Of a DNA stretch of 35,644 bases, positions 13,531-20,323 are shown in pieces. The DNA is from Acidobacteriota bacterium (GTDB taxonomy: Bacteria > Acidobacteriota > Aminicenantia > Aminicenantales > Saccharicenantaceae), in assembly GCA_029571905.1 (NCBI GenBank), contig JAKPXU010000001.1, positions 1 to 35,644 of the forward strand, read 5' to 3'. Under the pieces are notes generated by a model. It made no database searches. It was not told the DNA's origin and saw only the letters and a list, made by a program, of their open reading frames with translations. The translations under genes were made by a program, and so were the position numbers. Position 1 is the first letter of the stretch, and the number at the start of each line of letters is the position of its first letter.

Positions 13531-14310
13531 ATGATCATGACCTTTGACATTGGCAATACAACCATTGCTCTCGGCCTTTTTAAGGCTAAAAAATTGTTGA
13601 CCAGCTGGAAAATAAAAAGCGACAGAGAAAAAACAGCCGATGAATATGGCCTGATTCTCTCCGACCTGCTCGGATACCAAAAGCTTTCCTGCCAGGAAAT
13701 TAAGGGTGCCATTATTTCGTCCGTGGTTCCACCTATCACTCCTGTTATCGAGCAAGCGATGGAGAAATATTTCAAGGTCAAACCATTGCTGGTCGGACCG
13801 GGCCTTAAAACCGGCATACCAATTCTTTATGAGAATCCCGCCGAGGTTGGTCCAGACCGGATTGTGGCCGCTTACGCCGCCTATAAAAAGTATGGCGGGC
13901 CCTGTCTTGTCGTTGATTTTGGGACAGCCACTACTTTTGATGCTATCTCAGCCGCCGGTGAATATCTGGGGGGATCAATTGCCCCTGGAATTCAAATTTC
14001 GGCTGAGGCTCTTTATCTGCGAACAGCTCGCTTACCCCGAATCGAGATTAAAAAGCCCAAAATGGCTATCGGTCGCAATACTGTTTCGAGTATGCAGTCT
14101 GGACTTTATTTTGGCTATATAGGACTGGTCAACCAAATTATCAGTGAGATGTCAGCTGAACTCCAGGCCAAACCGATAGTGGTAGCCACCGGCGGTCAGG
14201 CCGAGCTTATTGCTACTGATATCAAGGCTATAGATCATTTTGAACCAAATCTGGTCCTGGAAGGTCTGAAGTTGCTCTATGAAAAAAACCGCCCTCGGGA
14301 GAAAAAATGA
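13531..14310 (+). CDS. coaX: Type III pantothenate kinase
   Basis: This enzyme phosphorylates pantothenate in the first step of coenzyme A synthesis; type III enzymes are insensitive to CoA feedback. The product has 259 residues, normal for the family. The ASKHA-fold motifs are TFDIGNTTIALGLF near the N-terminus, GPGLKTGIPI, PAEVGPDRIVAA, the second phosphate loop VVDFGTATTFDAIS and ATGGQAELIA near the C-terminus. The start ATG 13531 has AGGAG 6 nt upstream; an in-frame ATG two codons later is less well placed. The stop overlaps the start of the next gene (ATGA), implying translational coupling. Confidence 0.95.
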   Translation: MIMTFDIGNTTIALGLFKAKKLLTSWKIKSDREKTADEYGLILSDLLGYQKLSCQEIKGAIISSVVPPITPVIEQAMEKYFKVKPLLVGPGLKTGIPILYENPAEVGPDRIVAAYAAYKKYGGPCLVVDFGTATTFDAISAAGEYLGGSIAPGIQISAEALYLRTARLPRIEIKKPKMAIGRNTVSSMQSGLYFGYIGLVNQIISEMSAELQAKPIVVATGGQAELIATDIKAIDHFEPNLVLEGLKLLYEKNRPREKK

Positions 14311-14945
14311 CGCAGGATGAGACCGGCCGCCAGCACTACTACCAGGAGATTGCCCGCCGCTTTTTAAGGCATCAGACCAGTATGTTCTTTCTGCCACCGC
14401 GCGACCTGGCTCTCATCTCAGATTGGGAAAAACTGGGAATACCGCTTGAGCCAATTCTTGAGGGCATTGACCGGACTTTTTCCAGGCAACTTAAAAGAAA
14501 AAAAAAGAGAAATATCTATTCACTCAGTCAATGTGAAAGAGAAATATTAAAAGCTTATGCCAGTTATCAGGAGAGGCTCATCGGTCAGACCTCACCTCCG
14601 ATTGAACCCGATAAAAAAATAAATAAAGCCAGGGCTGAGATTGAGGCTTTCCTCAAGGGATTGCCGACCGAATTTGAGAAGCTAAACGAATTATATAAAG
14701 TAGCTCTGGAGATTCTAAATAAGAGTGAACCAGATGAAAATAAACTCGAAGAACTGGATGAAGAGATTGACCGATTTGTCTTCCAGCTCATACCGGAGGA
14801 AGAGAAAAAGGCTGGGTTAAAAGAGATTCGACGGGAATTTCCAGGCAAGCCGGAAGCGGTTTTGACTGAAATTCAGCAGACAAGACTGGTTAAGGAGAAG
14901 AGGCAGCTTTATCACCTTCCTTATGTCTCCCTTTTTTATTATTGA
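14307..14945 (+). CDS. Hypothetical acidic helical protein coupled to coaX
   Basis: The product has 212 residues and its ATG overlaps the coaX stop by 4 nt. No catalytic motif is visible. The N-terminal third contains FLPPRDLALISDWEKLGIPLEP followed by a helix ILEGIDRTF. This resembles a family of uncharacterised proteins in Acidobacteria and deltaproteobacteria, recalled only from its general pattern. The middle (about 85-185) is strongly charged and predicted helical (ELDEEIDRFVFQLIPEEEKK), and the end is hydrophobic and aromatic (YHLPYVSLFYY). The coupling to coaX and the following rnr do not identify a role. Confidence 0.7.
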   Translation: MTQDETGRQHYYQEIARRFLRHQTSMFFLPPRDLALISDWEKLGIPLEPILEGIDRTFSRQLKRKKKRNIYSLSQCEREILKAYASYQERLIGQTSPPIEPDKKINKARAEIEAFLKGLPTEFEKLNELYKVALEILNKSEPDENKLEELDEEIDRFVFQLIPEEEKKAGLKEIRREFPGKPEAVLTEIQQTRLVKEKRQLYHLPYVSLFYY

Positions 14946-14999: not shown

Positions 15000-17063
15000 A
15001 TGGAAAAAGAAATAATTGAATTTTTAGAAAAAAATAGAAAACCAATCAGTCTGGAAAGACTGGGTCGAATTCTTAAGTTGAATAAAGGAGAAAAACGAAA
15101 ATTAAAGGGACTGGTCAGATACCTGGAGAAACAGGGACTGCTTAAGCTGAAAGGCGATCTGGTCATGCCTCTGCCCAGAAGTAAAGTCATCAGAGGAACG
15201 ATCTCTTTAAACAAGCGCGGTTTTGCTTTTGTTACCCCAGAAACAGCAGAAGATGGTGCCGAGGATATTTTTATCCCACCAGGCCAGACAGCAGGGGCTC
15301 TAACCGGTGACCTGGTTGAAGTCATAGTCAAAGAAGAAGGACAAAAAGGTAAGGCAGAAGGACGGGTAACCAGGATTTTAAAGAGGGGGCGGACCTCTAT
15401 TTTCGGTTTGTATCTTGAGATAAATTACCAGCCATTTGTTCTCCCTATGGATACTCTTCATGAAGAGCCATTCCTGGTAAAACTTAAAAACCGCCAACGG
15501 CCAAAACCAGGGCAGATTGTAGAAATTGACAGAAGTAGCCTGGAAGTCAGAAAAATCCTTGGCTATCAGGATGAACCTGGGGTGGATCTGAAGGTGGTTA
15601 TCAATCAGCATAACCTGTTTGAAAAATTTAGCCCGGAGACACTGGCAGAAGCTACCACTCTGCCAGCCGAACCACTGAGCGAAGACTTTATAGGGCGCGT
15701 CGATTACAGAAATTGGACAACGGTAACCATCGACGGGGAGAAAGCCCAGGATTTCGACGACGCCCTGAGCATCAGAAAACTGAGCAATGGGCATTATCTT
15801 CTAGGAGTCCATATAGCCGATGTCTCCCATTATGTCCGGCCGGGCTCAGCTCTCGACCGCGAGGCCTACCTGCGCGGAACCAGCGTTTATTTTCCCGATC
15901 TGACCCTGCCCATGCTGCCCGAAAAATTATCTAACGATCTGTGCAGTTTGAGGCCTCAAGTTCCGCGCCTCACCGTCTCGGCTGTGATGGAAATAGACGA
16001 AAAGGGAACTATTCTTCAGAGTGATTTTCACCCCTCGGTTATTCAAACCACGGAGAGAATGACCTATACCTCCGTTTATAAAATCTTCCAGGGAGATCCA
16101 GGAGAGCAGAACCGTTACCAGCATCTCCATGCTGATCTTTTTCTTATGAGGCATCTGGCCCGGATTCTTAAGCGAAAACGTCTCCGCCAGGGCAGCCTTG
16201 ATTTTGATTTGCTTGAACCTGAACTTATTTATCGGGAAGGATTGCTGACGGCAGTTGTTCCTTCAGAGCGAAATGAAGCTCACAGTCTGGTAGAGGAATT
16301 TATGCTGGCCGCTAATGTGGCTGTTGCTGTTTATCTCAGTGAACATAATTATGGCTGTATTTATCGTGTTCACCCTGCTCCGACTCGTTCCGACCTGGAA
16401 AAATTAAAGAGCCTCCTGGTCCACTTCGGGCTGGAATTGCCTCGGGCCAGTCAGATTAAATCGACTGATCTCCAGAAAATTATTGAGAGCTTTAAAGGCC
16501 AGCCTGAGGAAAAATTCATAACCATTCAGGTTTTGAGAGCTATGCGCCTGGCCGTTTATTCTGATAAAAACTGTGGTCATTTTGGTCTGGCACTGCCGGT
16601 TTATACGCATTTTACCTCACCTATTCGTCGCTATCCTGATCTCGTTGTTCATCGTCTCTTGAAAAGAGCCCTGGCCAGGAAAAAACCGAGGCCTCTGCCC
16701 CTGGCTGACATCGCCCTTCACTGTTCCCAGCGAGAAAGACTGGCTGATGAAGCAGAAAGAGCTCTTATACAATGGAGAATTCTGCGCCTCCTGAAAAATA
16801 AGCTGGGCGAGGAATTCGTCGGGATGATAACCGACATTAACCGGGCTGGACTGGTGGTCGAACTTGACGATTACTTCATAGATGGCCTGATACCTTATTC
16901 CGCTCTGGGCGACGATTACTTTTTAAGAAGAGACGAAAAAACACTGCGCGGACGGCAAAGTGGAGTAACCTTCTCGCTCGGGGAAAGAGTTATAGTCAGG
17001 ATGGTTAGCTGCAACCCGATCCTTAAAAAGGTCGAATTTGTCCTGGCCGGAAAAATTGATTAG
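15000..17063 (+). CDS. rnr: Ribonuclease R (RNase II/R family 3'-5' exoribonuclease)
   Basis: This enzyme degrades RNA processively from the 3' end, including structured RNA. The product has 687 residues. An N-terminal winged-helix segment (about 1-60, LERLGRILKLNKGEKRKL) is followed by cold-shock OB folds (RGTISLNKRGFAFV, EDIFIPP). The RNB domain has all four metal-binding aspartates in TIDGEKAQDFDDA (Asp245, 251, 253, 254). HIADVSHYV and HFTSPIRRYPDLVVHR follow, and a short C-terminal S1 domain (FVGMITDINRAGL) completes it. The Lys-rich C-terminal tail of E. coli RNase R is absent. There is no strong Shine-Dalgarno; a TATAAA box at 14981-14986 lies close upstream. The next gene starts 18 nt downstream. 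Confidence 0.95.
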   Translation: MEKEIIEFLEKNRKPISLERLGRILKLNKGEKRKLKGLVRYLEKQGLLKLKGDLVMPLPRSKVIRGTISLNKRGFAFVTPETAEDGAEDIFIPPGQTAGALTGDLVEVIVKEEGQKGKAEGRVTRILKRGRTSIFGLYLEINYQPFVLPMDTLHEEPFLVKLKNRQRPKPGQIVEIDRSSLEVRKILGYQDEPGVDLKVVINQHNLFEKFSPETLAEATTLPAEPLSEDFIGRVDYRNWTTVTIDGEKAQDFDDALSIRKLSNGHYLLGVHIADVSHYVRPGSALDREAYLRGTSVYFPDLTLPMLPEKLSNDLCSLRPQVPRLTVSAVMEIDEKGTILQSDFHPSVIQTTERMTYTSVYKIFQGDPGEQNRYQHLHADLFLMRHLARILKRKRLRQGSLDFDLLEPELIYREGLLTAVVPSERNEAHSLVEEFMLAANVAVAVYLSEHNYGCIYRVHPAPTRSDLEKLKSLLVHFGLELPRASQIKSTDLQKIIESFKGQPEEKFITIQVLRAMRLAVYSDKNCGHFGLALPVYTHFTSPIRRYPDLVVHRLLKRALARKKPRPLPLADIALHCSQRERLADEAERALIQWRILRLLKNKLGEEFVGMITDINRAGLVVELDDYFIDGLIPYSALGDDYFLRRDEKTLRGRQSGVTFSLGERVIVRMVSCNPILKKVEFVLAGKID

Positions 17064-17081: not shown

Positions 17082-18179
17082 ATGAACTCTGCTGAGACAG
17101 TTTTTTATGCCCTGCCGGCTGGAGAATGGTCAGAGTTAGCCGGAGGAGGACAGCACTCAGGTCAGATTCTGGGCAACCAGGGCCAATTTCAGGCAAAAAT
17201 CGAAGCAAGCAGGCTGCCTTCAGAAAGATTTAATCTGCCCTATTTAAAGATAAAAACCAGCCAGCCTTTTGAAGTCAGGTGGGGAGACAATTTTCAAATT
17301 AAGCTTCCAGGTTTTAACCTGCCCATTCCGGCTCGAGTAATCTATCCCCAGGCCAATCAGCTAACAAAAAAAGAAGAAAAGCTCATCCAGTGCCTGGATA
17401 GATACGCTGAGGGTGAGAAGGCGATGCTGCTGGCTCTAACCGAAGAAACTGGCCTTCAAGGTTTGAGAGAAAAAGAGCTGGAAGACTTTTGCCGACTGCC
17501 TTCCTCCCAGCTCACTCAATTGGCCCTGGAGCTCGAAAAAGAGGGCCAGCTTTTTATTCTGGAATTTTCTCCGCTTTTTCTTCTGAGCAGAAAGAGCTTT
17601 GACTTTCTGCTGACCAAAATGATGAGTTACATTGAAGATTATCACCAGCGGCGGCCAGCTGAAACCGGTCCATCGATTAAAAAGATCCAGGAGAGATTCA
17701 AGTTGCCAAAGCCTGTTTTGCAACTGGCTTTAAATCGTCTCATAAAGGATGGGCAGGTGGAAATAAGCGGCGAACAGGTCTGGCGGCACGGTTTTGAAAT
17801 CAGCCTATCAAAAGAAGAAGATGAGATCATGACAGCCATTGAGAAGATGCTTCTGGAACAGAAGTTTTCTGCCTCTTCTTTGGAAGAGCTGGCCAGAAAA
17901 TTTAAAGTTCACCCTCAGCGCCTGGAAACGATGACCGAGCTCCTTCTCCAGAAAAAGAAGGTAGTCGAAAGTCCGGATGGTTTTATTCTTCATGCCAGCT
18001 GGCTGGAAGAAATTAAAAAAAAGCTGGAAGAAAGAAAGAGAAATGGCCAGAGGGAATTAACCGTAGGCGAGTTTAAAAAATTAACTGGCTTATCAAGAAA
18101 ATACGCTATCCCACTGCTCGAATTTCTGGATGAATTGGGTCTTACCCGCCGGAGCGGCTCGAAAAGGATAATTCTCTAA
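17082..18179 (+). CDS. Stand-alone SelB C-terminal-half-like protein (no GTPase domain)
   Basis: The product has 365 residues. The C-terminus (about 324-365) reads LTVGEFKKLTGLSRKYAIPL followed by LEFLDELGLTRR. This closely matches the last winged helix of the selenocysteine elongation factor SelB, which binds the SECIS hairpin. Residues about 100-320 contain further winged-helix-like segments (IQERFKLPKPVLQLALNRL, ARKFKVHPQRLETM). The first 90 residues (SGQILGNQGQFQAKIEASRL, then PIPARVIYPQ) look like the end of SelB domain II and the domain III beta-barrel. The GTPase domain and its nucleotide-binding motifs are completely absent, and full SelB is about 600 or more residues. No stop or frameshift interrupts the frame and no GTPase remnant lies upstream, where rnr ends 18 nt away. 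It may be a repurposed RNA-binding protein; its role is unknown. Confidence 0.75.
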   Translation: MNSAETVFYALPAGEWSELAGGGQHSGQILGNQGQFQAKIEASRLPSERFNLPYLKIKTSQPFEVRWGDNFQIKLPGFNLPIPARVIYPQANQLTKKEEKLIQCLDRYAEGEKAMLLALTEETGLQGLREKELEDFCRLPSSQLTQLALELEKEGQLFILEFSPLFLLSRKSFDFLLTKMMSYIEDYHQRRPAETGPSIKKIQERFKLPKPVLQLALNRLIKDGQVEISGEQVWRHGFEISLSKEEDEIMTAIEKMLLEQKFSASSLEELARKFKVHPQRLETMTELLLQKKKVVESPDGFILHASWLEEIKKKLEERKRNGQRELTVGEFKKLTGLSRKYAIPLLEFLDELGLTRRSGSKRIIL

Positions 18180-18213
18180 CTGAGTCTGGCCAGAGGTCAG
18201 GGTTATTTTTTTT
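18180..18213 (+). terminator. Probable intrinsic terminator after the SelB-like gene
   Basis: CTGA (18180-18183) pairs with TCAG (18197-18200), with inner TCT/AGA pairs around a GGCC loop. A GGTTA and a run of eight T (18206-18213) follow. It sits between convergent genes. The T run also encodes the Lys-rich C-terminus of the minus-strand gene, so part of the signal could be coding bias. Confidence 0.5.
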
Positions 18214-20323
18214 CTTCTTTTCCTTCTTCTTTTTGTTCCGGCTGTTTCTTGGTCAAAGCGGATTTCAACATTTCTGCAAAAAAACCAAATTTAGCTTCCT
18301 GCTTGGCTGCTTCCAGCTCTACCTGAATAGTTTTATCTTCTGCTTCGGCTCCTTCTTCTGTTTCTTCCTGCTGGGCCTTGACTGCTTCCAGCGCTTCTAT
18401 TTCAGATTCTTCCTCAACAATCCTTTCCTCAATCAAACGGCGATCGCTCTTTTTCGATTTAAATTTCTTATCTTCGGTTGGTTCTTTTTTCTTTTTACCA
18501 GGTTTTCCTTCTTTCTCTTTTTCTTTGGCTTTCTCTTTCTTAACCGGTTCAAGCGTAACTTTGATTTCAGCTTCCTGGGTCGGAGGCGCAACTACTTTCG
18601 CCTGGATTTCTTCCACTACCTTTTCGACACCGGCACCTTCTTGCTCTTCAGGAACAGCCCTTTCCTGGCTCACGATTGTCTCGGCTTCAGCTCGGCTACC
18701 AGCCAGTTGCTCGGCCAGCGATTCGAGAAAAGAGGACGCAGCTTTCTCTTCCTCTGCCGGAATCTCCTTTGGTTCAAGTGATTCTTGATAAATATAAATC
18801 CCTTCTTTTTTCTCCGACGCTACAAATTCAGGTGCATTATTAAGGACATATTCAACATCTTCAGCAGTCGTTGCCCGCAGCAGGTCAACCAGATGATAAG
18901 CCCGCAAAAAATGCAGCGACCGGTTATTGCCTGTCAGCTCTGGCGTCTTAAAGACCTTAACCAGCAATTGTCTCAAATCCAGACCTTGGCTTTCTTCCTG
19001 CCTGGTCAAAAGGTGGGCAACAGTTTCCCGGTCGAGATTGAGGCTTTTATTGGCCATAGCCAGAGTAAAGGCCTCTCCCTGGCTCAGACTAAAGCGTCCG
19101 GTAGCAGGATCATATTCCAATCGGTAAGTGGCAGTTTTCTTCTTAGACTTTTTGATCCAGAAGGTAAAAGTATCTTCAGATTTACGGTTAATGGTCAGGC
19201 TTGTTCCCTGAGGAATATTATTGGTCTGAAAATATTCAGCCAGTCCAAGGATAAAATTACCCTCAGGGTAATAGTAAACAGTATAGGATTTGCCATCCTC
19301 ATCATCAACGAACTGATATTCTCTTGAGGTGAATTCACGGGAGAGACTGCGTGGGAGGCGGATGGCGCCGGACAGAATTTCTCGCCAGGTCAGATAAACT
19401 TTAAATGGGAAAGAATCAACCCTGGTATATTGCAGGCCTTCCCCCTGCCCAAGATCAGGTACCGGAGCCAGGGGGCTGGAGATGGGCAGTCCTTCAGGCA
19501 GCTTATTAAGCACACTCTTCAAGTGCCACTTACCCCAATTTTTGGTTGAGAGGCAGATAAAATCTTTGCGATATTTCTTCTCAAACAGAAAATTTAAGGA
19601 CAGACAATAAAGTTCAAAGAGATCGCTGGATGGCTCAAGACCAAAATACTTTTTAACCATCTCTTCGCTCGAGACAGATGCCTTGCTGGTAGCCAGCTCC
19701 TCCGAAATTTCTTTAATTTTTTCTTCCGGGATTTCAATTCTTTTTGAACTAAGCTGCCAGAAATCATTCCAGCTGAAGAAAGTAGCTGATCCACTCAGGG
19801 CTTTCCTTAAGTTTCGCTCTAAAGCCTTAATATCCTTTTCGGTCATGGGCAGTTCGGTCTGCCTCGGATCGCGTTCCTCTTCTAGAATCTCAGGTTCTTT
19901 GCCCTGCCCCTCAGGGTTAGAAGGCAGCAGGACCTCTGTTTTGGTTTTTTTTATGTAGTCCAGATAACGACGGAAAGGTCCTCCTCCGTCGTAATCAACT
20001 TCCAGCATTTCGTAAGGGAAATTGGGCAGTCTGGTTTTATTTATTACTTTTAGTACCACTCCGCCCTGAAAATGCTCGGTAGCTTTGCTGCCGACCTGTA
20101 GATTTTCATCATATTCTTTATAGATAAAATCACCTATTTCGTAGCGGGCATTGGGATCATAAATTTTGACCGTCTGATGCCGTTCGCTGGCCGTCTTGGC
20201 AAAAGCCAGTTTTTCTGCCAGTTCAGCAGTGGTCAAAGGCCGATTGGTCCTGCTCAATTCCTGTTCAATTACGGCCAGATCTTCGGCAGTTATGGCCGTA
20301 ATTTTTAAATTTTCTTTATCCAT
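18203..20323 (-). CDS. Uncharacterised 706-residue protein with winged-helix-like and B3-like regions
   Basis: I do not recognise a named family. Residues about 10-45 (DLAVIEQELSRTNRPLTTAE) look like a winged-helix/HARE-type segment. Residues 61-136 form a beta-rich module (YEIGDFIYKEYDENLQVGSK, ending RRYLDYIKKT) like domains often paired with such helices in Chloroflexi proteins. Residues about 322-380 (LPRSLSREF, then DEDGKSYTVYY, GLAEYFQTNNIPQG) have the spacing of a B3/double-psi-barrel DNA-binding fold; this is only a pattern impression. From about 520 to the end the chain is Lys/Glu-rich low complexity (KEKAKEKEKEGKPGKKKKEP). There is no signal peptide or membrane segment. Its ATG lies 3 nt after the argF stop, so it is translated from the same mRNA. 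A nucleic-acid-binding or regulatory role is inferred. Confidence 0.7.
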   Translation of the reverse strand: MDKENLKITAITAEDLAVIEQELSRTNRPLTTAELAEKLAFAKTASERHQTVKIYDPNARYEIGDFIYKEYDENLQVGSKATEHFQGGVVLKVINKTRLPNFPYEMLEVDYDGGGPFRRYLDYIKKTKTEVLLPSNPEGQGKEPEILEEERDPRQTELPMTEKDIKALERNLRKALSGSATFFSWNDFWQLSSKRIEIPEEKIKEISEELATSKASVSSEEMVKKYFGLEPSSDLFELYCLSLNFLFEKKYRKDFICLSTKNWGKWHLKSVLNKLPEGLPISSPLAPVPDLGQGEGLQYTRVDSFPFKVYLTWREILSGAIRLPRSLSREFTSREYQFVDDEDGKSYTVYYYPEGNFILGLAEYFQTNNIPQGTSLTINRKSEDTFTFWIKKSKKKTATYRLEYDPATGRFSLSQGEAFTLAMANKSLNLDRETVAHLLTRQEESQGLDLRQLLVKVFKTPELTGNNRSLHFLRAYHLVDLLRATTAEDVEYVLNNAPEFVASEKKEGIYIYQESLEPKEIPAEEEKAASSFLESLAEQLAGSRAEAETIVSQERAVPEEQEGAGVEKVVEEIQAKVVAPPTQEAEIKVTLEPVKKEKAKEKEKEGKPGKKKKEPTEDKKFKSKKSDRRLIEERIVEEESEIEALEAVKAQQEETEEGAEAEDKTIQVELEAAKQEAKFGFFAEMLKSALTKKQPEQKEEGKEEKK

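Follow-up and report, generated by a model that had tools for sequence, protein, structure and literature searches.

A stand-alone SelB C-terminal protein encoded after RNase R is conserved in the class Aminicenantia

SelB normally inserts selenocysteine (Sec), and in E. coli it is also a translational repressor, acting via a SECIS-like element in selAB. In bacteria, SelB and SelC were described as markers of Sec decoding, with close bacterial paralogues absent, and the co-occurrence of selA, selC and selD as its signature (Romero et al., PMC1273633). In archaea, the SelB paralogue aSelBL is distributed beyond Sec users; its GTPase function is impaired, a disrupted G domain is kept, and the SECIS-binding extension is absent (PMC3037878). 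The open-access literature on truncated or SelB-like proteins and on RNase R adaptors yielded nothing on a stand-alone SelB family, although one may be mentioned elsewhere. The family described here is an exception to the statement of Romero et al. (PMC1273633).

The DNA analyzed (the window) was a 35,644-nt contig stretch from a genome of the Ca. Saccharicenans type (Aminicenantia, Acidobacteriota), and its features are collected in Table 1. The gene for the stand-alone SelB C-terminal protein (selBC) has an ATG start and no internal stops, and begins 18 nt after the stop codon of rnr (ending at 17063), as the initial annotation had described. The terminator-like hairpin behind it is possibly the end of an rnr-selBC transcript, judged from its pattern. 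A 706-aa protein of unassigned function, with weak Pfam matches only, is encoded convergently with selBC (18203-20323, minus strand), and its gene was kept beside selBC through much of the order. Between coaX and rnr lies a gene for an uncharacterised 212-aa protein (14307-14945, plus strand), conserved in the order and assigned to no Pfam family. One tRNA was the only Rfam match in the window.

Table 1. Positions of the rnr-selBC features within the window
Feature	Position	Strand	Evidence and remarks
rnr, RNase R, 687 aa	15000..17063	+	First of the conserved pair; TIGR02063 8.4e-208, over cut-off; Pfam RNB, CSD, S1
Stand-alone SelB C-terminal protein (selBC), 365 aa	17082..18179	+	Pfam, phmmer, AlphaFold/Foldseek
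Residues 1-95, six-stranded beta barrel, probable SelB/EF-Tu domain III remnant	17082..17366	+	AF2 and Foldseek; fastest-evolving part
Residues 97-169, winged helix 1	17370..17588	+	Model, phmmer; acidic, pI 4.5
Residues 170-238, winged helix 2	17589..17795	+	PF09106 at 183-233; model; basic
Residues 244-304, winged helix 3	17811..17993	+	phmmer, model
Residues 305-365, winged helix 4, SECIS-binding domain of SelB	17994..18176	+	PF09107 at 323-363, 1.2e-17; conservation; dN/dS; pI 10.1
Terminator-like hairpin	18185..18201	+	Pattern match only; between two convergent genes

Significant homology to the C-terminal half of SelB was found in sequence and structure comparisons. Pfam returned SelB-wing_3 (1.2e-17) and SelB-wing_2 (2.4e-7), both above cut-off, and phmmer aligned residues 124-364 with the C-terminal fragment of Moorella SelB (1lva, 3.6e-21). 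The AlphaFold model (pLDDT 88.8) showed one six-stranded barrel followed by four winged helices, and the structural comparison proposed in the initial annotation placed SelB structures at Foldseek ranks 1-12 (5lzb 8.6e-16, 1lva 9.1e-16), the best match spanning all 365 columns. All four winged helices, with the SECIS-binding signature in helix 4, are present by Pfam, phmmer, Foldseek and conservation. The full-length NCBIfam selB model scored 38.8 bits against a cut-off of 242.25 and was matched only at positions 415-578 of 581. Neither Pfam nor NCBIfam detected GTPase domain I in the frame or in the sequence upstream; as the gene in front is a full-length rnr (TIGR02063, 692 bits), it conceals no GTPase domain, and the earlier observation on this point was borne out.

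The SelB-like pattern had been read as starting at the end of domain II. Its winged-helix part was confirmed, but the alignment begins within a part resembling domain III; domain II is absent, and the 365-aa form has a single barrel. Folded alone, residues 1-95 gave an AF2 pLDDT of 83.5, and Foldseek ranked SelB 5lzb first, followed mostly by EF-Tu chains, with high probability but E values of only 0.1-0.9. Sequence profile comparison alone did not significantly identify the N-terminal parts as domain II or III, and residues 1-95 are probably a domain III remnant on the structural model. The barrel is missing from the proteins of family f2 and of some further lineages, which begin after it and have about 256 aa (e.g. 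L162). Elsewhere in the class, family f8 has a longer form of 468 aa, whose alignment is co-linear from domain II on. It may be read as D2-D3-D4, which would fit stepwise N-terminal loss; this reading is tentative because it rests on a co-linear extension of the winged-helix alignment.

Selection was assessed by dN/dS, which for the whole gene was 0.11-0.15, a sign of purifying selection. Winged helix 4 gave 0.03-0.09 in six of seven pairs, and 0.21 in the closest pair, where changes were few; the barrel was the least constrained part (0.27-0.69 in 6/7 pairs). R339, K340, E347 and T355 of helix 4 were invariant, D350 and R357 nearly so, and all six are the same in canonical SelB; R339 is presumably the counterpart of Moorella R606, a residue of the SECIS interface. 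The SECIS-recognition helix is thus the best-conserved portion of the stand-alone protein. A decaying pseudogene of a former selB would account for the missing GTPase domain and the faster barrel, but was rejected on conservation and dN/dS: frames are intact throughout the class, the overall ratio is low, and the proteins form a single ancient clade. We regard the chance of decay as negligible, in keeping with the first reading of the gene as retained, which was also upheld by its unbroken pairing with rnr across the order (below).

RNA is the presumed ligand, and a specificity for hairpins is likewise suggested, because of the homology and the constraint on helix 4. Winged helices can bind DNA or protein too. 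They are common DNA-binding folds, and weak Pfam matches to the MarR and FeoC models were obtained, so that a transcription regulator that switched from RNA to DNA was considered. The most constrained and most SelB-like part is nevertheless the RNA-binding helix 4, and the order of the four helices is that of SelB rather than of a transcription factor, which makes a DNA-binding role distinctly improbable.

Within the order, the stand-alone form was found in 59 of 60 sampled genomes and a match of some kind in all 60; the exception (G034) matched through a canonical SelB only, and its rnr was cut by a contig end. Across the class, matches were obtained in 134/142 genomes and in 64/64 good genomes, counts that include a few matches to canonical SelB only (e.g. 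G034). The genome scan covered Acidobacteriota, and sampled members outside the class had canonical SelB in open frames of roughly 580-1200 residues. One apparently short candidate outside the class (G124) was discarded as an independent stand-alone form, since it proved to be a 638-aa canonical SelB frame. In a winged-helix tree, a branch with 99/97 support separated 32 stand-alone proteins from 17 canonical SelBs. Compared with the stand-alone form, canonical SelBs of Aminicenantia scored 41-77 bits versus 129-144 for those of other Acidobacteriota; by score, those of Aminicenantia are not its closest relatives.

The Sec pathway was searched in 19 genomes of the window's genus, as the initial annotation had proposed. 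Neither selA, selD nor SelB exceeded its cut-off in any of them (0/19 each), and no convincing tRNA-Sec was found, no score rising above 52 bits; these are incomplete MAGs, in which a single absence is weak evidence and agreement over 19 is stronger. The best tRNA-Sec matches in the order scored 63-81 bits, mainly within selA-positive genomes. Three strong tRNA-Sec matches (64-71 bits) were seen in one Aminicenantia genome (G049, contigs C38, C203 and C26). Elsewhere in the order selA was patchy (21/60 order genomes), unlike the stand-alone protein, which therefore appears to be kept independently of selenocysteine. An action in trans with a GTPase encoded elsewhere had been offered as one function, and it was considered here as a split SelB serving Sec insertion or another kind of recoding. 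Canonical SelB does occur together with the stand-alone protein in some genomes of the order, but it already has winged helices of its own. In the window's genus no SelB-type GTPase was found, the best matches having the lengths of EF-Tu or other housekeeping translation factors. Agreement over 19 genomes without selA, selB, selD or a convincing tRNA-Sec makes both Sec insertion and a GTPase in trans unlikely; for the genus a split SelB is largely refuted, and we consider it very improbable altogether.

Adjacency to rnr was examined in the 60 order genomes and in named loci. Directly upstream of selBC, on the same strand, rnr was present in 57/57 informative genomes of the order, the remaining three of the 60 being interrupted by contig ends; among the named loci (the best 80 of 320), it was upstream in 76, and the other four were at contig ends. 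In genus g4 the two genes share 4-nt stop-start overlaps (ATGA or GTGA), as would fit translational coupling. In other parts of the class the arrangement is rnr-pgi-selBC in families f8, f10 and f12, pgi alone was seen adjoining selBC in f11, and selBC was apart from rnr in the one f9 genome examined. The phosphoglucose-isomerase-like gene, named from its sequence appearance, was directly upstream of selBC at seven loci (L178, L179, L180, L181, L182, L183, L184), between rnr and selBC where the contig includes rnr.

A partnership with RNase R had also been suggested, and of this the conserved pairing stood, absolute within the order. RNase R degrades structured RNA, which would suit an adaptor that joins it physically and delivers it to RNAs that carry hairpins or sit on ribosomes. 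Against such an adaptor, a metabolic gene intervenes in other orders, the pair is broken in the f9 genome examined, and unrelated housekeeping genes share the operon. The mirror-tree analysis found no co-evolution of selBC with rnr above that of neighbouring genes; the partial correlation given coaX was 0.23, below the 0.33 and 0.34 of neighbouring control genes. In the same analysis, distances of the convergent 706-aa protein tracked RNase R more closely than those of selBC (partial r 0.62). A direct partnership is possible, synteny being its support, and the physical adaptor as such is unlikely.

A target RNA was sought at operon junctions and around gene starts, where no conserved hairpin emerged from a standard consensus fold (no pairs). 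A z of -3.6 in 1/16 windows of a shuffle test was treated as chance, the standard consensus fold having given no pairs. At several loci of the genus (L072, L073, L074), a palindromic element of the type CCTACTAAATTAGTAGG follows the selBC stop codon.

We think it fairly likely that the protein is a selenium-independent, stand-alone RNA-hairpin-binding protein, made with RNase R and acting in mRNA regulation or decay. It would be an ancient, vertically inherited derivative of SelB from which both the GTPase domain and domain II have been lost. Its grip on a SECIS-like RNA hairpin would come from winged helix 4, probably aided by helix 2; spacing and contacts would be supplied by helices 1-3 together with the barrel. 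Co-expressed with RNase R, the protein would most likely control how an mRNA with such a hairpin is translated or degraded; alternatively, it could act on mRNA bound to the ribosome, in the manner of SelB domain IV. The earlier proposal of hairpin binding for another purpose gains indirect support from the conservation of the SECIS helix and from the lack of detected Sec machinery in the 19 genus genomes. As the class keeps this tail even in species that have none of the other Sec genes, mostly next to rnr, it was seemingly recruited for a new RNA job.

A SelB-derived protein was thus matched in every good genome of a bacterial class, one genus of which has no detected Sec pathway, and the RNA-binding half of SelB can lead an independent, selected life. 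Winged-helix matches alone should accordingly not be used to call the Sec trait, and the protein offers a defined subject for asking which RNA besides SECIS this domain recognises. A wider reading, in which a class-wide, selenium-free hairpin receptor derived from SelB guides RNase R, or else ribosomes, towards particular structured mRNAs, is a speculation that is rather unlikely to be right; if it were true, a regulatory system would have been built from recoding machinery once recoding was lost.

In comparison with bacterial SelB (TIGR00475; domain IV in PDB 1lva, 1wsu, 2uwm and 5lzb), the stand-alone protein has the same order of four winged helices, the helix-4 signature R-K...E..D....T.R and a domain-III-like barrel in front, but neither the GTPase domain nor domain II is present. 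The protein was found without selA, selC and selD, is linked to rnr rather than to sel genes, and forms its own clade; with two domains missing and the pathway genes absent, it does not qualify as SelB itself. Repression at E. coli selAB would be a precedent for a non-recoding action of SelB winged helices on mRNA, although full SelB is used there and no SECIS-like element was found at selBC operon junctions. The nearest conceptual parallel is aSelBL, likewise a SelB relative spread beyond selenocysteine users. It is archaeal, however, and the bacterial protein described here is its mirror image, with no G domain at all and with the SECIS-type winged helices kept.
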